Positions 11,691-62,947 of a stretch of 64,000 nt of DNA are shown in pieces. Numbering within the stretch: position 1 is the stretch's first letter; each line of letters opens with the position of its first letter. A model generated the notes under the pieces. That model was not told the DNA's origin. It searched no databases and was given only the letters and a program-made list of their open reading frames with translations. The position numbers and the translations under genes were made by a program. The stretch lies in NCBI GenBank assembly GCA_026075535.2, contig AP026544.2:2914001-2978000 (forward strand), written 5' to 3'. The stretch is from Tricholoma matsutake (Eukaryota; Basidiomycota; Agaricomycetes; Agaricales; Tricholomataceae).

Positions 11691-12275
11691 TAGTGTTTGA
11701 AGGTCTGGTTCAGTCTGGTTTTTTTCCATTTTGGAATGGAACCAGAACTGCAACCGGTTCAATGACATTTAAAAAGTAAACAAAACTGGACTGAACCACA
11801 CAAAACTGGTTTGTTGCAGTCCTGTCCAGTTTGACCACTGGTTGTAGCCCGTTTCTCACAGACCGACTAGAGTCGACATTATATACATGATATATACTTA
11901 ATAATACTATTATAAACTAGAATAAAAGCCCCTCACAGGCAGGGGCCTGTGAGCGGGCAAGTAGATAGTAATAAATAAAAAAGTGGTCATTAGTTGGCAG
12001 TGGGCATTGGGGCTGTGTCATTGTTGGTGTTGACAGTAAGGGTTGATGATGTGGCAGCAGTGCCATGTCAGCATTGTCATCGTTGGTGGAGGGCATTGGT
12101 GATGCAGCGCAGCTGCATTGTTGTTGGGGTTGGTGGTGGTGGTGGGCTTTGGTGATGGGGTGGTGACATGGCAGTTGTTGTTGTTGTTGTTGGGGTTGGT
12201 GCTGTGTCAGGGTGGTACTAAAAATAAAAATGAATACTAGTTAGTTGAGCAAATATAAAGAAAAACATACCAGTA

Positions 12276-12303
12276 GCCCAAACGATGTGGTTGTCATTTG
12301 GGC
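12276..12303 (-). repeat. Hairpin abutting an intron-like donor
   Basis: Arms GCCCAAACGA and TCATTTGGGC. On the minus strand the stem ends 5 nt before a GTATGT donor at 12270, which is followed by CTAAC and an ATTTTTAG acceptor near 12222. Same module as in E1-E3. Confidence 0.7.
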
Positions 12304-12613
12304 CCACTTTGCATTCGATCATGATGTCCCTCGTCATTGTCGTCAGCAACTCCAACAACACCCTATGAGCAGTGGCTTGCAGGTGCATTTGTTTGGTGTT
12401 GCTCATCTGGGTCATGTTGTGTGTCATTTTGGTGATTGTTGGCATTGGAACACAACCTGTCACCACCCTGTGAGCAGAGGCTCACAGCAGTGGGTGAAGC
12501 GGGTGGGGGTAGGTACCATCTTGGTGCTGTGTTGTAGGTATAACATAGTTAGAACCTAAAAATGAAAAGAAAAGATTAGCTAGTATAAAAAGAACATTAA
12601 AAAAACATTACCT

Positions 12614-12641
12614 GGGGCCCAAATGAGGTCGTTTGGGCCCC
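12614..12641 (-). repeat. Hairpin abutting an intron-like donor
   Basis: Perfect 10-nt arms GGGGCCCAAA and TTTGGGCCCC. On the minus strand the donor GTAATG starts at 12611, 2 nt beyond the stem. A T-rich tract ending in TTTTTAG follows near 12557. Confidence 0.7.
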
Positions 12642-13186
12642 ATGTGGTTTGTTGGCAGTGTTTTGGGGCATTGTCTGATGTGGAGGATGTGGGAGTAGTG
12701 GCCCGTGTTGATGAGTGGTGGTGGAAGGAGGCAGAGGGGAGCATGGTCAAAAGGTGGTGGTGGTCGATGTTGATGTGGCATGTGTTTGGCAGGCATGGAA
12801 ATGGTGAACCAAGTGGCACCACTTTTTTGTTTGGGTGCGCAAACGTGACTAAATGGTCTGTGCCCAGTTTCAGGGTATATAAACCCTTGCTTTCAGTGTT
12901 TCTTTTTCTTGGGCACACCCCACTTTAATTTTAGTTTTGTTATTATTACATTTAATTATAATCAAATTACATCTACTTACACAAGTATAGTATGTAGGTT
13001 AAAGGTCGGTTAGAACTGGTTAGAACCAGTTTTAATCAGTTTTAAATGAATATTACATTCAAGGCAACTGCAACCAATTGGCTTGCAGAATGAGGGCAAC
13101 CGCAACCACAAAAAGACTGAACTGCAGTTCAGTTTGGTCCAGTTTCAGTTTTTTTCCAGTTTGATGAACTGGACTTTCAAACACTA

Positions 13187-26667: not shown

Positions 26668-26930
26668 GAGTACACTCCTCCACCTATTCCAGTCAGATTC
26701 CAGTTGGAATGCCCATTCCGATCGGAATTTCCAGAATTCCGGTCAATTCCATTTACATATATTTTTCTCACAAATCATAATTCTGGTCGGACTGGGGGGT
26801 CAATTTTACCTCCAGAATCCCCAGAATCTTCCCAGACTCATTTTTACCTGGAATAGTCGGATCAACCGGATGCATGGCACTAGCATAACTGGAATAACCA
26901 GAATGCATGTGCTTTCCCAAATAAAATTTT

Positions 26931-27007
26931 GACGTGCAACAAGAATTGAACACTCAACCTTGGGTCTGCACACATAACAGCACACTTAACCACTGAGCTA
27001 CCGGGTC
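26931..27007 (-). repeat. tRNA-like sequence, left end of E1, facing outward
   Basis: On the minus strand it begins with a near-canonical D-arm/A box (GGTAGCTCAGTGGTTAAG) and has a B-box-like GTGTTCAATTC about 35 nt further on. No acceptor stem pairs, so it is a pol III promoter-like relic or SINE-head-like module rather than a tRNA gene. Confidence 0.55.
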
Positions 27008-27255
27008 ATTATTCATCTACATCCATCTAATGCTTTTATTACCCAACCAAGGTGCATAGTTACAGCAATACACACACATGCATATTGCATGACACATGAC
27101 ATGTGACTGCCAGCTCACAACCACCACCACCATCTTCAAGGCTGCCTCCTCCTCCCCACTCTACCACCACCACTGCATGTGCACCTGCCACCACCATTCC
27201 CATGCCCACTCCCACCATCACCACCACCCTCAAACAAGCTGACTGGACAGAATGC

Positions 27256-27660
27256 GGGCCCAAACGACACAGATTGTGTCGTTTGGGGCCTAAGTATGTT
27301 TTTTTCGTTTGCTTTTTGTTTTTATAAACTAACTAACCTTTTTTTTAGTTTTCTAGGTTATAATCTACTAGTAACGACGCCACCACCCACAAATGAGCCA
27401 ATGCCTTATGTAAGTTTTTTTGCTTGGTTTTTGTTTTTATAAACTAACTAACTCGTTTTTTTAGTTTTCTAGGTTATAATCTACTAGTAATGACACCACC
27501 ACTCGCAAACGAGCCGACGTGGGCCCAAACGACGCAGATCGCATTGTTTGGGCCCTATGTAAGTTTTTTTCACTTGGTTTTTGTTTTTATGAACTAACTA
27601 ACTTGTTTTTTTAGTTTTCTAGGTTATAATCTACTAGTAATGACACCACCACCCGCAAAC
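27256..27660 (+). repeat. Tandem intron-like modules with hairpins in E1
   Basis: Three copies of a unit: donor GTATGT or GTAAGT (27294, 27410, 27559), T-rich tract, ATAAACTAACTAAC branch-like site, TTTTTTAG acceptor, then a shared exon-like start (GGTTATAATCTACTAGTAA). Donors 1 and 3 are preceded by a hairpin GGCCCAAACGAC...GTTTGGGCC (27256-27290, 27521-27555), ending 3 nt before the donor. Donor 2 lacks it. Confidence 0.75.
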
Positions 27661-28254
27661 GAGCCAACACACCCACCCCACGCCTGCGAGCCCCTGCTCA
27701 TAGGGTGGATTGTGAGTGTGTGCAGGCAACAACAACAATGACGCCGCCGTCTACCAGCACCAGAACCCCCCAGAATGCAAAGCATGGCTGCCAACAATGA
27801 CAGACAACGACGACAAGGCCAACGACACACCACCCGCCCCCAGCCTCACGAGCAACTGCTCGTGGGGTGGATCATGGGTGGAATGACAACGACGACAAGC
27901 CACCCACCTCCAGCCTCATGAGCAACTGCTCGTGGGGTGGATCGTGGGTGGAACAACAGACAACAGCGGGGTCGCGTCCCCTCCCCCTCCCCTGCACTTT
28001 GTGTGGGGAGGGATTTTTTTTGTAATTTTAATTTTTTGTACTTATAATTATTTATTAGTATTGTGCCCCCCCTCCCCCATTTTGCCTGGGGGAGGGATTT
28101 TTTTCGTCATTTTTACCTCCCCCCTCATGTTTGGCGCAAGGGGTTAGCTTTTTATGTATATAAATAAAACTCCCTTAATTAAAAAATTTTGATCTTAACT
28201 ACTTCAAAAAAAATTAGAGTGTCATGAATAAACATTATATTACTAACTAATAAT

Positions 28255-28347
28255 TCTCCTGTGGCTCAACTGGTTAAGCACACATGTTTGGTTTGTCATG
28301 TGATCACTCTAATCAAGATGTCTTGAGTTCAATTCTTGCTCTGCACA
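28255..28347 (+). repeat. tRNA-like sequence, right end of E1, facing outward
   Basis: A box TGGCTCAACTGGTTAAGC and B-box-like GAGTTCAATTC, read toward the right end of the element. No pairing acceptor stem. Confidence 0.55.
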
Positions 28348-28555
28348 AATATATTTTGTAGGCACTTTGACAACTTAAGACTTGAAATTTGACTATCCAT
28401 TAGGGTATATACTCTAAGTTGAGCATCTGGAGTAACCAGAATCTGGTTGGAATAACCGGAATCCACTGGAATCCAGTCAGAATAACCAGAATCCACTGGA
28501 ATCCAATGGACTCCAGTGAGTCCAATCGGAATAGGTGGAGGAGTGTAAATTACTG

Positions 28556-29438: not shown

Positions 29439-29667
29439 GAGGTCTTTACACTCCCCCCCCCCCCAATCTGAGCAGACTCTGCTCGGACACTTGGACTTCT
29501 TTGGCTGAAAGTCCTGCCAAACTAATTGTCCAGTCCAAGCTGAGTCCAAGCTGAGTCCTTGGACTGTCCTAGGACTATCCAAGCATCTGAGCAGAGTCTG
29601 AGTGGACCAGCACTTGTACAGTCCTAGGACTGTCTGAGTTGCTTATATAATTGACTGAAAAATCTGT

Positions 29668-29755
29668 GGCTACTGCAGGGATTGAACCCTTGTAGTCACA
29701 TGATAAAGTACAATTAAGTCAGCGATATAACAGTTAGACTAAACCATCATTACAG
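29668..29755 (-). repeat. tRNA-like sequence, left end of E2, facing outward
   Basis: Minus strand: A-box-like TGGTTTAGTCTAACTG and B box GGTTCAATCCC. Same as 37288-37375 in E3. Confidence 0.55.
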
Positions 29756-29884
29756 GTAAGTAGTTATATCTCTCTATGTACCGCCCCAGCTGTAATGACA
29801 AATCAACACAGCTGCGTCATCAACAATGCTGGCAACGGCGCCACCTCCTCCTTACCTCCTGCCCCAATAACCAACAATGGGAAC

Positions 29885-29984
29885 GAGCCCAAATGATGGC
29901 ATTGTTGTTTGGGCTCACTTGTAAGTGTTTTTTTACATGATCTTTGTTCTTTTGTTTAACTAACTGAAATTTCCTTAATCATAG
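29885..29984 (+). repeat. Hairpin plus intron-like module 1 of E2
   Basis: Hairpin GAGCCCAAA...TTTGGGCTC (29885-29916), donor GTAAGT at 29921, TTTAACTAACTG, and acceptor AATCATAG ending at 29984: a 64-nt intron-like segment. Confidence 0.72.
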
Positions 29985-30254
29985 GTTTTATCTATGTTAT
30001 AACGATGCCGCAGCCTCAAAACCATGACAATGGCTGACACAGCCACCACCCTAGGACCCAGAACCACTGCCACAAGCAACTGCTTGTGGGGTGGGAATGG
30101 GTACAACTGCAAAATGGCAAGACAATGGCAACACCGACTTGGCCCAATGGAACAACAACGCAACGAGATGACTGGAGATGACTGGGACTGGGAGATGGAA
30201 TGATGAGGGGACAAGCGGGAAACAATGAAAGGAAGGCAAAGCAAACGGAGAAAA

Positions 30255-30336
30255 GGCCCAAGAGATGTCGTTTGACATCTCTTGGGCCATTGGTAAGTTT
30301 TTTTTTCTTGTTTTTGTTACTAACAAACTTTTTTAG
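30255..30336 (+). repeat. Hairpin plus intron-like module 2 of E2
   Basis: Perfect 15-nt arms GGCCCAAGAGATGTC and GACATCTCTTGGGCC with a GTTT loop (30255-30288). Donor GTAAGT at 30293, TACTAAC branch-like site, TTTTTTAG acceptor ending at 30336: a 44-nt intron-like segment. Confidence 0.78.
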
Positions 30337-30622
30337 GTATTATCCAGTACTGCTGATGACGATGATGACGAGCACTCAGAACCACTGCCGCAAGCAGCTG
30401 CTTGCGGGGTGGGAATGGGTGCAACTTCGAAATGACAAGAATGGCTACTGATGCCCACCATGCAGGACACACCACCCGCCTCCAGCCTCACGAGCAACTG
30501 TTCATGGGGTGGATGGTGGGTGGAATGACTATGATGGCAGGGAACAATGACAGCACCAGCCCCAGCCCTATGAGCCACTGTTGGTAGGATGGACGGCGGG
30601 TGGAACGACAATGATTAGGGGA

Positions 30623-30714
30623 GACCCAAGAGATGTCAAAGTCTCTTGGGTCCTATAGGTAAGTTTTTTTTTCTTTTCTCATTTCATTTTTTGATCCTAA
30701 CTAACTTTTTATAG
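30623..30714 (+). repeat. Hairpin plus intron-like module 3 of E2
   Basis: Arms GACCCAAGAGA and TCTCTTGGGTC (30623-30652). Donor GTAAGT at 30659, CTAACTAAC, acceptor TTTTTATAG ending at 30714. Compared with module 2 the second arm pair changed from G-C to A-T on both sides. Confidence 0.75.
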
Positions 30715-31218
30715 GTACAGACTACTACTGGCAATGACAATGACAACACCACCACCACCACTACTGTGAGCCCCTGCTCGCAGGGTGGAAGGTGAGGTGA
30801 AGAGATGAGGGGGAAGGAGACGAGAGGGAAGGGAGATGAGAGGGAAGGGAGACGATGATGAGAGTGGGGACACCCATGATGACACCCACCCCACGCCTAT
30901 GAGCATCTGCTCATGGGGTGGTTTGGGGGGGAGAAGAATGGGGACAGGAGAGTGAGATGGCCAGGGGATGACCCGGGGAGAGATGAACGCCGCCACGAGC
31001 AACTGCTCATGGTGGGTGTTTTTAATTTATTTTTATAATTGATAATTACGGCCCCCTCCCCTCAAGCTTGCAAGGGGAGGGCTTAGTATTATACATATTA
31101 ATTACCCATATTAAATACCCCTTGCACAGATGCAAGGGGGTCAATTTAATAATCTATTCATGATATATAACAAATTAGATTTCAGTAATAAACAGATATA
31201 ATGTATGTAACTTTAAAT

Positions 31219-31309
31219 GACTACTTGGCTTAAGTGGTAGAGTGTGCATATTTTGTTGTCATGTGATTGCTAGTCCAGAAGGCTGTGGGTTCAATTCCTG
31301 CTGTGCACA
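31219..31309 (+). repeat. tRNA-like sequence, right end of E2, facing outward
   Basis: A box TTGGCTTAAGTGGTAGAG and a perfect B-box core GGTTCAATTCC, followed by TGCTGTGCACA. No pairing acceptor stem. Confidence 0.58.
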
Positions 31310-31547
31310 CATTATTTTGTGAGACTTATAAGACTTTCTCTAAGACTGGAACTCAGACTTTACTTGGTCAGTACTTTAAAAGGTGTAAATAGATGCCCAA
31401 TTGATGTTTTCCGAGCAAAGTCTGAGTGCAGTCTGAGTGCAATCCTTGGACTTTACTCAGACAACTTGGACAGTCCTAGGACAGTCCAAGTGTCCAAGTG
31501 TGTCCGAGTGGAGTCTGCTTGGACTGGGGGGGGAGTGTAAAGTACTG

Positions 31548-31971
31548 GATTAATAGCCTTGTTTCTCCAGAACTGTGCTTTCCCCTCCTGAACGTATGAG
31601 AGAGCAAACATAATCCTAGACTTGGCTGTATGAAACTCTGGCTTCCTCCCATGGATGTACAATACTATAGAGCTGATAAAAGATTTTGTGTTCTCCATGG
31701 TACTATCAAGGATTTGCAGGGGCACATACTTAGGTAAGCATGCTTTTCCATATCCAGATTTCTCCATTACCTGCACATCATCCTGTGACATCCACTCCAC
31801 CATCTCCTCCATCTCATCATCTCTATCTCCTGTCATCTCTGGCTGTACCTCTGCTGGTCTGGGCTGTGATGCTGCCAACACTGACACTAACTGCAACATT
31901 TGTGCCATAAGTGCATCAATTGGTGTGGGAACAGGATTAGGACTGGGATTAGAAGTTGAGGGTTCAGACAT
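31548..31971 (-). pseudogene. Family X gag, N-terminal part
   Basis: Starts at 31971 with MSEPSTSNPSPNP, nearly identical to the plus-strand copy at 52896. It runs through a capsid-like segment (KSFISSIVLYIHGRKPEF) to the E2 insertion. The N-terminal half is complete but separated from its C-terminal half. Confidence 0.85.
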
Positions 31972-32848
31972 AACAGTTAGAGCTGTGATGAATCACCTCT
32001 TTGGCAGAGTCAAAACTTGTTCTTTGAGACCTCTCCAAATGTCTACAGGTCACATGATTCTGTAACTCAGGTACCAAACTCAGAAAAACCCATTTGTTTG
32101 TCAATTGTTCATTTGTTCATTTGTTCATCAAGCACTTTGGATCAAGATCCCTAATACTGAATTTGGCTTGTAACTAAAATAGTCATCTGAATAGAGTAAT
32201 GTAATTCTTGACTAAACCAGATCCAATTGGTTGTCTGGTTGCAGTTGTCCTAATGACGAGTGCTGCCTCTCAATCACTGGCAGTCGTAATGTAAGGCGAG
32301 GCCTGGCATCAGCTTATGAAAGAAAAGGTAGATTACAATTTATGTATATACAAGTACTTCTGGCTTGTGCCAAAAGGAAGAGTAATCAGATGTGGCATGG
32401 TGAAACCATGACATATGTGCAAGTAAGAGAAGGCACACTGATATGGGAAGTTGTGTTTTTCTGTTAGGGTGACACCCACTATCTGCTAGCTAAGACTGTG
32501 CAGGTTCTCTCTACAAGAAGGGGGTGTGATGTGTGCACACAATACAGGGATTAATGGTTTTGATGTGAGGGGTTATTAATAGATGAGTTTGTTGAGAAAG
32601 GCATTTCACACCACAAGTGTAGGTAGAACACAACTGGGTCCCTAGGTGTATATTTAGGGTTTATATACTATGTTACATATATTGTACATTGTTGTTACCG
32701 ATGTGCTCGTTCACATGTGTACATATTGATACATGTGAAATAAAATTCTCACACTATCAAAGTGGAGCGTCATTCAGCGTAATGTAGCATAATTCAACAT
32801 AATAAAATAAAATGAAATTTTATTAGGTAATGGGGCTGTTTCCTAACA
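31972..32848 (-). repeat. Family X LTR and leader
   Basis: On the minus strand it begins TGTTAGGAAACAGCCCC at 32848 and matches the leader of the X element at 47581 onward. It holds the unoccupied sites of two insertions present in that copy (32608-32615 for the hAT relic, about 32430-32440 for Y1). A primer-site-like TTTGGTACC lies near 32080. The exact LTR end is unresolved. Confidence 0.65.
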
Positions 32849-35041
32849 CAAACCAGGATTGAAGCAATTTTATATGTAGTATGTGAGCTAATTTTGATTG
32901 ATAAATGAGAGAAAAATGCTGTGGGAAAATCATGCAAAAATGCAGGGAAAACCTTGTCAGAATGACAGAAAAGTCTGGCATTCTCTCAAAATGTTCTGGT
33001 GAGGAAATCTTAGGCAAAATCAAGGGAAAACCTTGGAGAAACTTATGTTCTTCTCAAATTTTACCACATGCAAAATTTTGGGCTTTGTGCTGTGTAGACC
33101 ACAATATGCATACACTACTTGTTCTTATTAGAATATTGTTTTGCAAGACACCTGGTATGCCACAATCAGAGAATAGAAAAAAAGAACACATTTCTCAACT
33201 GCCATGTCTTTATTTCAATTCAATTTTTTGTGGCATTTGTGGCATTTGTGGCAGACTTTAACTGTAAATCCTGTGCATCAGGAAAATCACACATTGTTTT
33301 TCTAGCTTTATAAAGCCACTCCAAACAAGGGGGTTACAGGATTTGAAAGAAGCATATCAGGTTGATTTCTGATGTATTTTTGGTGAAGGAATCTGAATCT
33401 GAAGGAATTATGCACACCTGGTCAGTGGTTTGAAAGATATTGCTTGATTTTGTCACCTGTGGGAAAAAAAATTTCATCAATTTTTTTGATAGATTGGGTG
33501 ATTCTGTGTTGTTTTCAAATTTCTGAGAGATGCTAGGGGACAGAGAATCTCAATTTTGGATAATCCCACAACTACAAGTACTGTTTGTTCTGTTTGTCCC
33601 ATTTGGCTTATGTCACCACTAAATCTGAATTCATGTTGATTTGTTGTAAAAGTGGGTTCCAAGGGTAAGGAGCTTTTTTGTAGGCCTCTGCGCCACCTCA
33701 AGATCACACATCTAGCTCCGCTACCCACATGGTCTCAGAGCTCTGCTCAACCTCCTTTTTTGCATGGTCCATGACTTGGTGCTAGAGGCTAGCAGATAAG
33801 ACAGTTGAAGTGTGACTAGGAGATCCTGTGTTGCTTCCTTTCAACCCCCATCTCACTCATAAGCAACACAGGTAAGTGCACCGCACTTCATATTGTTTTC
33901 AGCTTCTTACCCTGTTGGTTTTGTTATTCAAGGCCTTGCCTCTCATAATAACATTTCCTTGCTTTGTAAGAGATCTCACAATCTCCTACAGATTAGACTC
34001 AACTAGACTTTTGCTCAACAGGATTCTTCTGGCATCATTTAATAGCTTTGCTACCTCATCCAGTTGAATCTTATGAGTGAGCGGGTGTTCCATCCATTTC
34101 TATCTGAGTCTATTCCTTATCTGACACAATACACACAGGGTTCATTGAATCATTCAATCAACATTCGATTTTCATGGCCCTCCCACCTCTCCCCTTTTTA
34201 ATATTGTATTAGTCTTGTATTAGTGTCTCCTAGTCAAATGGTCTATGCTTCAACTTAATTACTTGTAACTGTACTTTTTCTTTTGTATTTGTAGCACATC
34301 CACTCTCTTGCCTATGAAAAACTTAAGAGGGGAACATTAAGTGAGAGTTAAAGGAGCATGTCCTATTCAAAAGGTGGGGAGACACCTATATACATTTTTT
34401 GCAGTCAAGATAACAGAGAATCTGATCACATGCGTTCTCTTGCACTGACAGAGCCAAACAATGTGAGAGATAAGCTACTAAAGAATCAAAATTGTCAGAC
34501 TCAAGAAGTATTGACAAAGTCCAAAAGAAGGGTTGTGCTTGCTACAATAAACCATGATTGTGTCATTGAGTCCTCATCTCAGAGTTTCACAGGCTGGGGA
34601 TGTCTCAGGAATTGGTTCCATGTCAGGGTTCTCTATTGACAATATGTTGCCTGTGCCCCCAGCAAGCATGGAGAACTCTCAAATGGGACCTCTCAACCCT
34701 ACCATCCAGTCGATCAACTGAAGGAAATATATACTGGAATGAACACTGAACTGTTGCCAAGATAAGTTATTAATAGGCCAATGAAACACCAAATGCAAGG
34801 TTGATTAAAAACCCAGTACCCTCCTTCCCATTGACAGGGTGCTGTCAGCACAAAGGCTGAGGGAGCAGTAACTGACTATGTGACACACAGCATAACCTAG
34901 ACAGTAGGAATTGATTGAAAAACTGTTAACATGACAACATGCAAGATAAAAAATAGAAAAGAGTGGGGGTTACAAGTAGGCCTCATTACCCTACCACACT
35001 GTGTGTGTCATCAAGATTCCGAGCCACACACAAAGACCCAT
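32849..35041. other. Degenerate repeat family W and unassigned DNA
   Basis: 33230-33610 matches, in inverted orientation, the flanks of element H (37936-38155 and 43916-44130), so it is a dispersed repeat, here called W. TGGTCTCAGAGC at 33730 resembles an initiator-tRNA(Met) primer-binding site directly after ...CCACA, which would make W an LTR ending at 33729. No open frame of note; a 93-codon frame at 34358-34639 has no known motif. Confidence 0.45.
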
Positions 35042-35405
35042 TGTAAGGGGACTAGGGGATACCCCATGTGTTTTTCCTATTTTTTACGTTCGTCCTATAT
35101 TTTTCCTCACTTCATTTCCTCCTATTCTTCATTTTCTATGATTTTTCCTTATTTTATTACTAATTTTCCCTTCTATCACATTTGTGCATGTTGACAGTTT
35201 TATATTTAGAGGCGGAGCACTCCTTCCGACATCTACCCCTTGGTATGATGTCATTCAGTGGCCTTGATCTGCCTATCTCTGCCTTTTCTATTTTTAGATT
35301 ATTATTTGATTTTTGCAGTCTTCACATATACTGGGCATTGGCAAAGGGGTCCTCATAGTTTTCTCTTCAGATTTCCCTTTGACAGAGGCTGAGGTTGCCC
35401 TTATA
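35042..35405 (+). repeat. Solo LTR of the D/Y family (364 bp)
   Basis: TGTAAGGGGACTAGG...GCCCTTATA, flanked by CCCAT on both sides (35037-35041, 35406-35410). It lacks an internal segment present in the 426-437-bp copies. Confidence 0.85.
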
Positions 35406-35745
35406 CCCATCAAATGACCATGCTCAGCAAAATCACTCTCTGAGGTGTCCTGAAGCTGTTGGATTCATACCAAACAGCTGATTTTAGAGCCTCCCAACAA
35501 CTGGTAACACAAGTCTCCAGTACTTTACACTCCCCCCCCCAGTCTGAGCAGACTCCACTTGGACTCTGCTCGGACACTCGGACTCTGCTCAGACTGTCCA
35601 AGTTGTCCAAGTAAAGTCCAAGGACTGCACTTGGACTTTGCTCAGACAACATCAATTGTGCATTTATTTACACCTTCTAAAGTACTGTCCAAGTAAAGTC
35701 TGAGTTCCAGTCTTAGAGAAAGTCTTATAAGTCTCACAAAATAAT

Positions 35746-35839
35746 GTGTGCACAGCAGGAATTGAACCCACAGCCTTCTGGACTAGCAATCACATGACAA
35801 CAAAATATGCACACTCTACCACTTAAGCCAAGTAGTCAT
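35746..35839 (-). repeat. tRNA-like sequence, left end of E3, facing outward
   Basis: Minus strand: TTGGCTTAAGTGGTAGAG and GGTTCAATTCC, the counterpart of 31219-31309. Confidence 0.58.
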
Positions 35840-36383
35840 TTAAAGTTACAAACATCATATCTATTTATTACTGAAATCTAATTTTATATATATCATGAAT
35901 AGATTATTAAATTGACCACCTCGCATCTGTGGGAGGGGTAATTAATATGGGTAATTAATATGTATAATACTAAGCCCTCCCCTCGCAAGCTCGAGAGGAG
36001 GGGGCCGTAACTATCAACAATAAAAATAAATTAAAAACACCCACCACGAGCCACCGTTGCTTGTGGCAGCATTTGTCTCTCCCCGGGTTGTCCCCTGGCT
36101 GTCTCGCTCTCCTGTCCCCATTCTTCTCCCCCCCGAACCATCCCATGAGCAGATGCTTGTAGGCATGGGGCGGGTGTCATCGTGGGTGTCCCCACTCATC
36201 GTCGTCTCCCTTCCCTCTCATCTCTGGTCCCCCTCGTCTCTTCACCCTCACCTTCCACCCTGCGAGCAGGGGCTTGCAGCAGTGGTGATGGAGGTGTCAT
36301 CATCGTCATCACCAGTAGTAGTTTTTACCTATAAAAAGTTAGTTAGGATCAAAAAATGAAATGAGAAAAGAAAAAAAAACTTA

Positions 36384-36418
36384 CCTAGGACCCAAGAGAC
36401 GTTGATGTCTCTTGGGTC
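36384..36418 (-). repeat. Hairpin abutting an intron-like donor in E3
   Basis: Perfect arms GACCCAAGAGAC and GTCTCTTGGGTC (36389-36418). The minus-strand donor GTAAGT begins at 36384, followed by T-rich sequence and CTAACTAAC. Confidence 0.73.
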
Positions 36419-36747
36419 TCCCCTAATCATGGTTGTTCCACCTGTCATCCACCCTATGAGCAGTGGCTCGTAGGGCTGGGGTGGGTGCTGTTGTCATTCC
36501 CTGCCATCGTCATCATTCCACCCATCATCCACCCCATGAACAGTTGCTCATGAGGCTGGAGGTGGGTGGTGTGTCCTGCATGGTGGGCGTCAGTAGCCAT
36601 TCTTGTCGTTTTGAAGTTGCACCCATTCCCACCCCGCAAGCAGCTGCTCATGGCAGTGGTTCTGAGTGCTCATCGTCATCGTCGTCAGCAGTACTAGATA
36701 ATACCTAAAAAAGTTTGTTAGTAACAAAAACAAAAACAAAAAACTTA

Positions 36748-36785
36748 CCAACAGCCCAAGAGACATCAAACGACGTCTCTTGGGC
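36748..36785 (-). repeat. Hairpin abutting an intron-like donor in E3
   Basis: Arms GCCCAAGAGAC and GTCTCTTGGGC (36754-36785), minus-strand donor GTAAGT at 36748, acceptor TTTTTTAG near 36709. Confidence 0.73.
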
Positions 36786-37119
36786 CTTTTCTTTGTTTGC
36801 TTTGCCTTCCTTTCATTGTTTCCCACTTGTCCCCTCGTCATTCCATCTCCCAGTCCCAGTCATCTCCAGTCGTCTCATTGCATTGTCATTGCATTTGGCC
36901 AAGTCGGCATCGCTGTTGTCTTGCCATTGTCTTGCCATTTTGCAGTTGTACCTGTTCCCACCCTGCAAGCAGTTGCTTGCAGCGGTGGTTCTGGGTCCTA
37001 GGGTGGTGGCTGTGTCTGGTTTTGAGGCTGTAGCATCATTATAACATAGATAAAACCTATGATTAAATAAATGTCAGTTAGTTAAACAAAAGAACAAAGA
37101 TCATGTAAAAAAACACTTA

Positions 37120-37156
37120 CAAGTGAGCCCAAATGACAATGCCGTTGTTTGGGCTC
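37120..37156 (-). repeat. Hairpin abutting an intron-like donor in E3
   Basis: Arms GAGCCCAAA and TTTGGGCTC (37125-37156), minus-strand donor GTAAGTG at 37120, then TTAACTAACTG and an AATCATAG acceptor near 37055. Confidence 0.73.
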
Positions 37157-37287
37157 GTTCCCATTGTTGGTTATTGGGTAGGAGGTAAGGAGGAGGTGGC
37201 GCCATTGCCAGCATTGTTGATGATGTGGCTGTGTAGATTTGTCATCACAGCTGGGGCAGTACATAGAGAGATATAACTACTTACCTG

Positions 37288-37375
37288 TAGTGATGCTTTA
37301 GTCTAACTGTTATATTGCTGATTTAATTGTACTTTATCATGTGACTACAAGGGTTCAATCCCTGTGGTAGCTACA
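37288..37375 (+). repeat. tRNA-like sequence, right end of E3, facing outward
   Basis: A-box-like GCTTTAGTCTAACTG and B box GGTTCAATCCC, the counterpart of 29668-29755. Confidence 0.55.
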
Positions 37376-37643
37376 GATTTTTCAGTCAATTATAGAAGCA
37401 ACTCAGACAGTCCTAGGACTGTACAAGTGCTGGTCCACTTGGACTCCGCTCAGACACTCAGACAGTCCAAGGACTCAGCTCGGACTCAGCTCGGACTGGA
37501 CATTTAATTTGGCAGGACTTTCAGCCAAAGAAGTCTGAGAAAAGTCTGAGCAAAGTCCTCGGACAGTACTTGGACAGTCTGAGTGTCCAAGTGGACTCTG
37601 CTCAGATTGGGGGGGGGGGGGAGTGTAAAGACCTCCAAGTCTC

Positions 37644-47832: not shown

Positions 47833-48863
47833 TAGGGATGCCGAAGTTCGGTTCGGTCCGGTTCTCTGAGCTATTTCTCTGAACCGTGAACCAGAACCAG
47901 GCAGCAAGGAGGGGGTAGCCAGAACCGCGAACCAGAACTGAGAGAACCAAGTTCAGCAGGTTCAGTTCAGGTTCGAACGAGGTTTGAACTGTAGAACCTA
48001 GTTAGCAAAAAAAAATCTCACACATGAATTTGAGCAACAAGAACAGAAGTGGGTGAGCAGAGAATAGATCATGCAGATATGTACACAGTTCAGGAGTAGG
48101 TAGAATATGAGATCACAATTCATCATCAACCTCCATTGGTATCCACATTTGATCATGCACAGCAGCTTCATCTTCTGCGACGATAAGCCTGTCCCAGTAA
48201 CAGCACTTCAGGATCTGCAATGCTTCGAAGGTATCCAGTTTGAGCTGGTTTCGAGCCTTTGTATCCATCAATCCACCTGATGAGAATGCACACTCAGACG
48301 GGACCGAGGAACCTTGAATAGCAAGATAATCACAAGCAATGCGGGCTAGTGTTGGAAACTGTGTCTGGTGATGCTATAAATGACGGTAAGACATTGGCTG
48401 TATTTCGAAGTATCAGATAACATACCCCCCACCACTTAACCAGATCATGTTCACCGATCTCCAAAGGACTGTTGATGTAATCAAGAAATTCTTGGCACAG
48501 GCTGCAGCTTGCACGCTCTTGTTCAACATGCCCATGGACTGAAGCATGGATGAATGACATCGCAAATCCCTTTGGCTTCACCAGAGAACCTGTACCCTTA
48601 TGAGAAAATGATAGAAAATGAACGTGAAATCAAATGTATATTACTTTCAATCCCAACTTGGACATTTACGGCTTGAAAACCCTGTGTCATTCATAGTGTA
48701 GGTTCTTTTCGAACCGAGTTCATATAGATCCTGGAGGCCCCGAACCTGCAACCAAACCTACTGGTAAAAGACAGAACCAGAACTGGACTGAACCAGAACC
48801 GCAGGTCTGGTTCAGGCATTCGAGGTTCGAACCTAGGTTCTGAACTGAACTTTGGCATCCCTA
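47833..48863 (-). mobile_element. hAT transposon relic (1,031 bp)
   Basis: Ends TAGGGATGCCGAAGTTCGG and TGAACTTTGGCATCCCTA, flanked by the perfect 8-bp duplication TGTGGTGC (47825-47832, 48864-48871). Dense in GAACC/GGTTC subterminal words. It keeps the last exons of a hAT transposase, so it is an internally deleted derivative of an autonomous element. Its empty site is at 32608-32615 in the other X copy. Confidence 0.9.
48113..48581 (-). pseudogene. hAT transposase C-terminus (dimerisation domain)
   Basis: Two exons: 48581-48426 and 48373-48113, joined by a 52-nt intron (GTATGT...TATAG). The joined frame reads through YINSPLEIGEHDLVKWWG, then FPTLARIACDYLAIQGSS, SECAFSSGGLMD and LKLDTFEALQILKCCYW, the hAT C-terminal dimerisation signature. 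The catalytic core is missing. Confidence 0.85.
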
Positions 48864-61289: not shown

Positions 61290-62947
61290 TAGGGTGTAGC
61301 ATGGGTATGGGTAAACCCACAGTAAATGGCCCACAGGTTGGACAGGTATGGGTATGGTTGCTGAAATGCCAGACCTGTGACATACCATACCCATTTTGGC
61401 AGTGTGATGGGTATTGATGGGTGGCTTGAGTTGCCAGATCCAGCAGTTGCTAAACTACCAATCGACTTCAGATTTCCAGTTCCTCTTCACCCATGGGCAT
61501 CGCCCATCATAATAGTAAGTTTTTTGTTTCTTCCAACTAATTAAATGTGCTCTTTTCTAGGGTACAGTGTCAGCTCAACAACAGTAAGTTGTTTATTTCT
61601 TTCAATTAACTAACTGTTTCTTTTTTCTAAAGGTTCTATCTATGTTGTAACAATGAGACAGCACCAAGACAGCACACCCATGCCTAGGATGATGACCCAG
61701 GATGGGACAATTATGGTGATGAGGAAGAGGATGGTGATGGGGCAAAACAAAAAAAAGGTCCAAGAGACACTGCCATCTCTTGGGCCATAGGTAAGTTGGT
61801 TTTTCCTTTCTCATTTCATTTTCTTGTTACTAACAACAAAGGTTTTAGGTAGTGATTTTACTATTGATGATGATGATGTGTGCCCCCTGATTGACCCCCA
61901 CCACTGCCACGAGCCCCTGCTTGTGGGGTGGTCAGGTAGTAGCAAGACCATATGCCCATGAGGCTACCAGCAATGACAAATTTGAGGAAACGATGACTGC
62001 CACTGCAATGCCAGCATCCATGGGGACAATGGACAAACTGCCATGAGCAGCAACAAGAATGGCCACCTGAACCGACACCCACCACCACAGCTGTGTGCAA
62101 CTGCTCGCAGGGTGGATGGTGGTGCTAACAAATGGGAATGCCAGGGGATGAGAGACAGGGCTGATGATGGACACAAAGGGGACAATGGGAGGCAGTGACA
62201 AGAACAACAAGGGCAATCAGGGCACAGAGAACAATGGGGGGGACAAGAGGGGTCAAGAATGGTCAAGAACAACAGGGAGAATGAGAATGATGGGGGGACA
62301 AGGGGGGGATGAGAACAACAGGGAGGACGAGAATGATGGGAGATGAGAATGACAACAACAAATCGCTGCTGCCACCGCATACAAATGGAACGAGCACATA
62401 TTATGACATGGGAGAGGACTGCCACCATGATGTGGGAGAGGAGTGCCACCTATAAGGGGCAGCAGGGGGCAATGAGTGGGAAAGGCACCACCATGATGAC
62501 CTCTTGCCCCTTGCTGTCACAAGATGGCCATCTTTTTCTTTTTGTAGTATTGTATAGAATTATTAAGTAAATAAATTCCTCCATCACTTGAGACGAGGAA
62601 TGAGGTGTATTTTTTTGCATGTGGATGATAAGCATGATTAAATAAAATCCCATTGCTCATGTTATTCAAATTTGAAAAGTATCTATAGCTTAGGTATTAT
62701 GTACAGGGTGTAGTTGAGTTAGTTAAGGGCTTATACCATACAAACACAGGATGTTTAATAGCATAGAACATCAAATTCAAGGCAAAAATCCATGGTGTAT
62801 ATATGTTGTGTCACACCTGCAGTGTTTCACAACAGACCATGGTAAAAACCTGTCACCACAGTTGCGGTGTTAGAATGGGTGTGGTGTTGGCAGGTGCGGG
62901 TGCAGTGTGTGAAATGTTACCCATGGTGTGACCCATGCTACACCCTA
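61290..62947. mobile_element. Non-autonomous hAT-type element J (1.66 kb)
   Basis: Inverted ends TAGGGTGTAGCATGGG and CCCATGCTACACCCTA with a perfect 8-bp duplication TCCATGGA (61282-61289, 62948-62955). The interior has GTAAGT...CTAAC...AG intron-like modules, a hairpin before a donor (61757-61791), GAGCcCCTGCT palindromes (61908, 62093), a GACAA/GGGGACAA-rich tract (62160-62350) and a degenerate tRNA-like stretch near 62710. No transposase. Confidence 0.87.
61757..61848 (+). repeat. Hairpin plus intron-like module in element J
   Basis: Arms GGTCCAAGAGA and TCTCTTGGGCC (61757-61786), donor GTAAGT at 61791, TTACTAACAAC branch-like site, acceptor GGTTTTAG at about 61848. Two further donor/acceptor-like segments lie upstream at 61510-61635. 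Confidence 0.7.

Follow-up and report, generated by a model that had tools for sequence, protein, structure and literature searches.

A 64,000-nucleotide stretch of the Tricholoma matsutake genome (the window; contig C7, positions 2914001-2978000) contains five transposon-like copies in which palindromic hairpins sit directly upstream of sequences resembling 5′ splice sites. The feature is real and non-random, occurs in multiple lineages, and resides in non-autonomous hAT-like elements. As a preliminary description of this DNA had proposed, these elements consist of modules, each with an exon-like segment that mostly closes in a hairpin directly before a splice donor. The layout recurs across lineages whose ends are unrelated. 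The layout, the one-sided position of the donor, its spacing, the DNA-transposon ends and the CpG decay are established at the level of the sequence itself. The favoured reading, judged about as likely as not, is that the elements carry a spliced, structured non-coding RNA unit in which the hairpin works on the 5′ splice site.

Hairpin-donor sites and their placement

All 11 hairpin-donor sites of the preliminary description are confirmed. A covariance model that combines hairpin and donor, trained on 20 sites (eight from the window) and searched across the window, recovers the same 11 with E≤5.8e-9. The next matches are the same palindromes in antisense, followed by a hairpin-less module of element B (E=0.14) and noise. 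Rather than representing 11 element copies, as first thought, the 11 hairpins are distributed over five copies belonging to four families (A twice, B, C and D). On the plus strand, hairpins 1 (GAGCCC..GGGCTC, 29885..29916), 2 (GGCCCAAGAGA..TCTCTTGGGCC, 30255..30288) and 3 (GACCCAAGAGA..TCTCTTGGGTC, 30623..30652) of A copy 1 (A1) precede intron-like segments at 29921-29984, 30293-30336 and 30659-30714, respectively. On the minus strand, A copy 2 (A2) carries hairpin 1 at 37125..37156 with its donor at 37120, hairpin 2 at 36754..36786 with its donor at 36748, and hairpin 3 at 36389..36418 with its donor at 36384. Element B, on the plus strand, has hairpin 1 at 27256..27290 (donor 27294, GTATGT) and hairpin 3 at 27521..27555 (donor 27559), while its module 2 (27394..27421), the weak model match mentioned above, keeps the intron-like segment without a hairpin. 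Element C contributes two minus-strand hairpins, at 12614..12641 (donor 12611, GTAATG) and 12275..12304 (donor 12270, GTATGT), and element D a single plus-strand hairpin at 61757..61786 (donor 61791). The reported segment size of 44-64 nt holds throughout the window, and the CTAAC motif said to follow each donor is replaced by CTAAT in the segment of donor 12611.

Chance does not explain these sites. Of the 153 donor-like sites in the window, 12 have a hairpin that scores at least 23 and is placed 0-8 nt upstream, whereas 20 second-order Markov windows give 11 of 2887; this cutoff was chosen post hoc, the weakest of the 11 known sites scoring 23, so that all of them pass. Within the five elements 11 of 27 donor-like sites bear such a hairpin, versus 1 of 126 elsewhere in the window. 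In a cruder control, from which element interiors were not excluded, 17 of 2000 random window positions score at least 25. The sole above-threshold pair outside the five elements, at donor 33872, is about the chance level; here an 11-bp stem of different sequence (33826-33871) abuts a GTAAGT donor.

The donor occupies one side of the hairpin only. This was assessed across the genome (161,040,721 bases in 13 contigs) using 14 perfect GGCCCAA-N9-TTGGGCC palindromes chosen regardless of donors, which by eye represent about six lineages and not 14 independent events. In 11 of them GTAAG, GTATG or GTGAG lies no more than 10 nt away on a single side; none has such a motif on both sides, and three have it on neither, of which L002 has GTATC, and L004 and L066 have a similar site one base off (by eye). 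The distance from TTGGG to GT is likewise nearly constant: in 26 donor sites from about nine lineages (28 tabulated rows less two non-hairpins) it is 6 nt in 17 and 5 nt in six, with 7, 8 and 2 nt occurring once each. The search expression behind this table missed L076a (spacing 6) and L067 (spacing 12, by eye), as well as two donor-less palindromes. A short intron of 44-67 nt can be parsed downstream of 21 of the 26 donors, all sources taken together.

Comparison between families reveals which parts of the module are retained. Over 99 ungapped pairs, identity is 28% in the 60-nt upstream exon (38% at the best shift), 73-74% in the arms, values lowered by two mis-registered arms, and 86% in the donor. 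Families thus scarcely exceed chance identity in the upstream exon, yet they retain stem, spacing and donor.

Stem covariation, CpG decay and element ends

Among 20 sites, changes are observed on both sides at 6 of 11 stem pairs, and 95.8% of alignment cells are paired against a shuffled mean of 88.5%, with none of 500 shuffles reaching as high. In a larger table of 29 hairpins, 324 of 347 cells pair, compared with a shuffled mean of 304.9 and a maximum of 317 in 2000 shuffles; the CpG in one A stem of this table was set by hand to its paired form, affecting at most two cells. Double changes outside CpG occur in this alignment at positions -5, -4, -3, -1, +3 and +4, each possibly reflecting one event. 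The earlier statement that the arms change together therefore applies between lineages and modules, where some pairs are doubly changed, and does not extend to the copies within family A.

Family A was followed through 31 copies (30 loci plus A2), 25 of which retain both ends. CpG columns, 260 of 1967 overall, account for 243 of the 285 variable columns, a pattern that points to methylation of CpG sites in the repeats of this fungus, followed by deamination. The variable CpG pair is readable in 29 of 31 module-2 hairpins and in 22 of 29 extracted module-3 hairpins. Where both arms have changed, the changes are compensatory in nine module-2 and two module-3 hairpins and non-compensatory in seven and eight, giving 11 against 15 in total (Fisher p 0.59 for module 2 and 0.17 for module 3). 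Covariation within family A is accordingly rejected as a sign of maintained pairing, the changes in the two arms being uncoordinated, and it follows that inserted copies decay regardless of pairing, with any selection acting on master copies.

The element ends place these modules within DNA transposons. A1 spans 29439..31547 (2109 bp, plus strand) as a hAT-like non-autonomous element with ends GAGGTCTTTACACTCC / CAGTACTTTACACTCC; its flanks share GATTAATAG, corresponding to a target site duplication (TSD) of GATTAATA(G) in a 9-bp match. A2 (35518..37635, 2118 bp, minus strand) is 88% identical to A1 and has its own exact TSD, CAAGTCTC. Because the two TSDs differ, the inverted arrangement represents two separate insertions, and a 7-kb palindrome covering 29.5-37.6 kb is rejected. 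Element B (26668..28555, 1888 bp, plus strand) has ends GAGTACACTCC / CAGTAATTTACACTCC and the TSD TCCTTAAT/TCCTTAAC with one mismatch, element C (11691..13186, 1496 bp, minus strand) has ends TAGTGTTTGAA and the exact TSD CTAGCTAC, and element D (61290..62947, 1658 bp, plus strand) has ends TAGGGTGTAGCATGGG and the exact TSD TCCATGGA. The terminal inverted repeats, judged over their first 16 bases, are imperfect in A and B, equal at 14 of 16 positions in C, and at 16 of 16 in D. Genome-wide, a first look yields 3134 candidate copies of A, 3728 of B, 1225 of C and 1563 of D, of which 40 per family were scored.

An 8-bp TSD with at most one mismatch and at most 1 nt from its expected place is found in 21 of the 25 two-ended A copies, 14 of them exact, whereas flank pairs drawn from different A copies give 5 of 600 at this tolerance and none exact; a looser rule gives 22 of 25 copies and 35 of 600 control pairs. 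Such duplications and ends fit the hAT superfamily, and KDZ elements are also said to give 8-bp TSDs. For D the hAT assignment is direct, because its right end and the end of the hAT-domain locus L045 match along 56 nt, with a score of 52 where none of five shuffled queries exceeds 30, and the match to the hAT dimerisation domain in L045 lies inward of this common end. Ends like those of A, B and C also occur near the hAT loci L056, L057 and L064, facing away from the hAT gene, and are therefore interpreted as neighbours or nested insertions. In L074, where an A/B-like element might have included the hAT gene, the element starts just past the hAT 3′ end, and this candidate is rejected. Within the 30 loci fetched from 151 hAT-domain matches, with 1.5 kb on each side, an autonomous partner with donor hairpins was not found; a donor hairpin of this type occurs at L057 and L074 only, inside an adjacent insertion. 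Together, the ends and duplications suggest that the elements are non-autonomous hAT-like DNA transposons, with mobilisation by a hAT transposase predicted.

Many of the 40 scored D copies (for example, C1:5109947-5111548) align in separate blocks, with interior segments absent or replaced relative to the window copy. From this blockwise alignment, D modules seem to have been gained and lost between subfamilies.

Proposed mechanism and rival explanations

In the proposed mechanism, non-autonomous hAT-like elements would be moved in trans by hAT transposases, and their interior would be transcribed as a non-coding unit instead of being what is left of a protein gene after deletion. RNA polymerase II would read through this unit and the spliceosome would excise introns of 44-67 nt. 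The stem abuts donor position -3/-4, flush with the site of U1-donor pairing. Through this positioning, it could keep the 5′ splice site single-stranded and stack on the donor-U1 helix, promoting splicing of the modules and generating a mature RNA that would consist of a chain of hairpins. Tandem duplication probably multiplied the modules, and master copies would retain the stem and the splice signals, in contrast to the decaying inserted copies. A wider proposal is tentative and on balance doubtful: a clade of DNA transposons would carry a functional non-coding RNA, spliced from exons that end in hairpins, with the stem at near-fixed distance governing splicing, and would have been transferred among, or kept by, hAT-like vehicles whose ends are unrelated. 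Non-autonomous DNA transposons are normally thought to require nothing beyond their ends. That lineages with changed ends have kept an interior rich in hairpins and apparently competent for splicing suggests that RNA matters to the element. In addition, about nine lineages bearing a stem at a near-fixed distance from the 5′ splice site provide a natural set for stem effects on splicing.

Several observations weigh against a spliced RNA unit with a hairpin acting at the donor. The statement that each exon ends in a hairpin describes most modules, the exceptions being module 3 in some A copies, module 2 of B and two D segments: A hairpin 3 is absent in 4 of 31 copies (L010, L013, L018 and L027), B hairpin 2 is absent, and D intron-like segments 1 and 2 (61513 and 61588) are, by eye, without a hairpin of the donor type. 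The losses in A and B indicate that the hairpin is not strictly required. No intron can be parsed at 5 of the 26 donors (L002, L068 and L069). In the 20-site comparison the number of further pair types is unexceptional (81 of 500 shuffles), and CpG accounts for two of the six pairs with double changes. The tests of covariation and identity, moreover, draw mostly on rows that were detected through their hairpin. A direct link to a hAT gene is observed for D only, and the A majority sequence holds a 119-aa frame spanning a splice junction (p 0.057). Intronless copies are also lacking: the module-1 exon junction of A has no genome match at up to three mismatches, and the module-2 junction has five, each with 2-3 mismatches and resembling, by eye, unspliced GTATTT/GTAATT donors more than joined exons. 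This lack at the two junctions agrees with DNA-based movement and says nothing for splicing.

The same material can be read as a frozen duplication, in which one ancestral exon-hairpin-intron module was tandemly copied and spread with transposons, leaving hairpin and splicing now idle. The modules within A and within B are alignable repeats, the changes within families are uncoordinated CpG decay, and some copies have lost their hairpins, all as expected under this explanation. Frozen copies fit poorly, however, with exons that stand near chance identity between families beside a retained stem, spacing and donor, and with stems that differ by double changes, although both counter-tests are weakened by sites having been picked for their hairpin. 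Idle duplication is considered unlikely, while deserving serious weight. Alternatively, the palindromes could act as DNA, for example as dyads for transposase or host factors, or could be kept symmetrical by template switching between arms, with the adjacent GTAAGT being incidental. Near-perfect arms would suit such a role, DNA-level correction would yield double changes too, and repeats near the element ends already resemble protein sites (by eye). A dyad is nevertheless directionless, and the donor is one-sided in the 14-palindrome sample and nearly fixed in spacing; moreover, the L076a stem is kept through two adjacent G-U type pairs, unexpected for a DNA dyad. Palindromes acting as DNA are considered improbable.

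A remnant of a multi-exon protein gene, such as a host gene that was captured or the 5′ exons of a transposon once autonomous, would make the hairpins a reflection of repetitive coding sequence. The short canonical introns resemble those of coding genes, and the 119-aa frame of the A majority sequence contains a basic and an acidic stretch. A search for protein relatives of this frame, covering 14 candidates, found none at E≤0.01, and spliced frames are not clearly longer than those of 300 shuffles: p is 0.08 stop-to-stop and 0.057 with ATG for the A majority sequence, 0.77 and 0.62 for A1, and 0.62 and 0.41 for D, with introns placed by eye. This origin is further disfavored by a stop (by eye) at the equivalent junction of D and by the near-chance identity of hairpin-adjacent exons between families, and it is regarded as highly improbable. 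Protein coding is rejected on frame length and protein relatives, and the interior looks non-coding. Least expected of all is that structured, slowly spliced transcripts feed RNA interference, being diced and directing methylation. The concentration of A variation in CpG columns (243 of 285) would follow from this, and in fission yeast introns of a non-coding transcript are reported to promote RNA interference (PMC5322907). Such silencing would, however, harm the element, and CpG decay is expected of any methylated repeat. Furthermore, stems of 11-18 bp are short for Dicer.

Interior features and comparison with described elements

A word search of the open-access literature, judged mainly from titles and the openings of abstracts, found no description of such an element, and the nearest systems resemble A-D in part. 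The hAT-derived elements resembling miniature inverted-repeat transposable elements, such as Mar of Drosophila (PMC3517528), share an 8-bp TSD, short terminal inverted repeats, near-end repeats, the lack of a detected protein gene and high copy number; A-D differ in their length of 1.5-2.1 kb and in a modular intron-like/hairpin interior common to families with unrelated ends. Introners and introner-like elements (PMC9860276 and PMC4457414) are likewise transposable sequences with spliceosomal splice sites, but there the intron itself is inserted in host genes, whereas the intron-like segments described here form part of a larger transposon. What moves here is not an introner, the ends and TSDs of the window copies being hundreds of bases from the hairpin-bearing donors. 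Pack-TYPE elements (PMC8903248) similarly enclose a gene-like interior with introns between the ends of a DNA transposon; A-D differ from them in that no coding capacity was found in their interior.

Two further element classes were considered. Retroposition of a tRNA-derived short interspersed nuclear element, which gives a variable TSD, a simple tail and no inverted ends, disagrees with the constant 8-bp TSD and inverted ends observed. A Fanzor/TnpB guide-RNA element was sought with a single profile, PF07282 (Cas12f1-like_TNB), which we take to be a Fanzor marker and which has 0 matches in the genome; on this profile a Fanzor-type guide RNA is rejected. The element megB1 has RNA polymerase III (pol III)-type boxes. 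It is set beside A-D by description, sharing the genus and, possibly, boxes of this type. According to PMC10627285, megB1 is an Alu-like dimer of Agaricomycetes, described in the genus Tricholoma and placed among retrotransposons.

Despite their differing ends, A, B, C and D share interior patches at roughly 58-91% identity. The interior holds three kinds of dyad, namely the donor hairpins, short GAGC hairpins and C-rich/G-rich hairpins. The GAGC hairpins of A (YRCGAGC-NNCT-GCTCGYR; 30069..31012, plus strand) occur throughout the exons, the A majority sequence containing six followed by GGGTGG and, by eye, a seventh near 30995. Across 19 sources, 26 GAGC hairpins followed by GGGTGG are found in 12, with at most two mismatched pairs of seven. 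Their outermost pair is T-A in 13, C-G in 11 and otherwise in two, their second pair is A-T in 13, G-C in eight, G-T in four and A-C in one, and their CpG-bearing third pair is mixed (C-G 11, T-G 5, C-A 5, T-A 5). GAGC hairpins also lie near the hAT gene in 6 of the 30 hAT loci (L040, L041, L042, L050, L062 and L064; L057, with a nested element, is uncounted), and in L040, L041, L050 and L062 the hAT gene and first GAGC hairpin belong to a single stretch with about 93% identity across 1 kb. Two C-rich/G-rich hairpins, identified by eye, occupy the 3′ end of the A interior (31051..31142, plus strand).

On the right side of A, a tRNA-like segment faces outward (31242..31309, plus strand), scoring 20.9 bits with RF00005, below the gathering score of 29. 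By eye, outward tRNA-like segments with A-/B-box-like motifs appear at both ends of A and B (31220-31310, 29660-29750, 26930-27010 and 28255-28345). The RF00005 model has no match at 26900-27030, ARAGORN reports 0 tRNAs in the window, and no Rfam family reaches its gathering score there, with weak MIR5070 look-alikes near the A ends; the outward tRNA-like segments are thus weakly supported candidates. In element C, a TATA-type motif (GGGTTTATATACCC, 12873-12886, minus strand) lies upstream of hairpin 1 and, by eye, may be a promoter. Elsewhere in the window, another hAT-type element extends over 47833-48863, with ends TAGGGATGCC / GGCATCCCTA and the TSD TGTGGTGC, and contains near 48209-48400, on the minus strand, a match to the hAT dimerisation domain with a stop.

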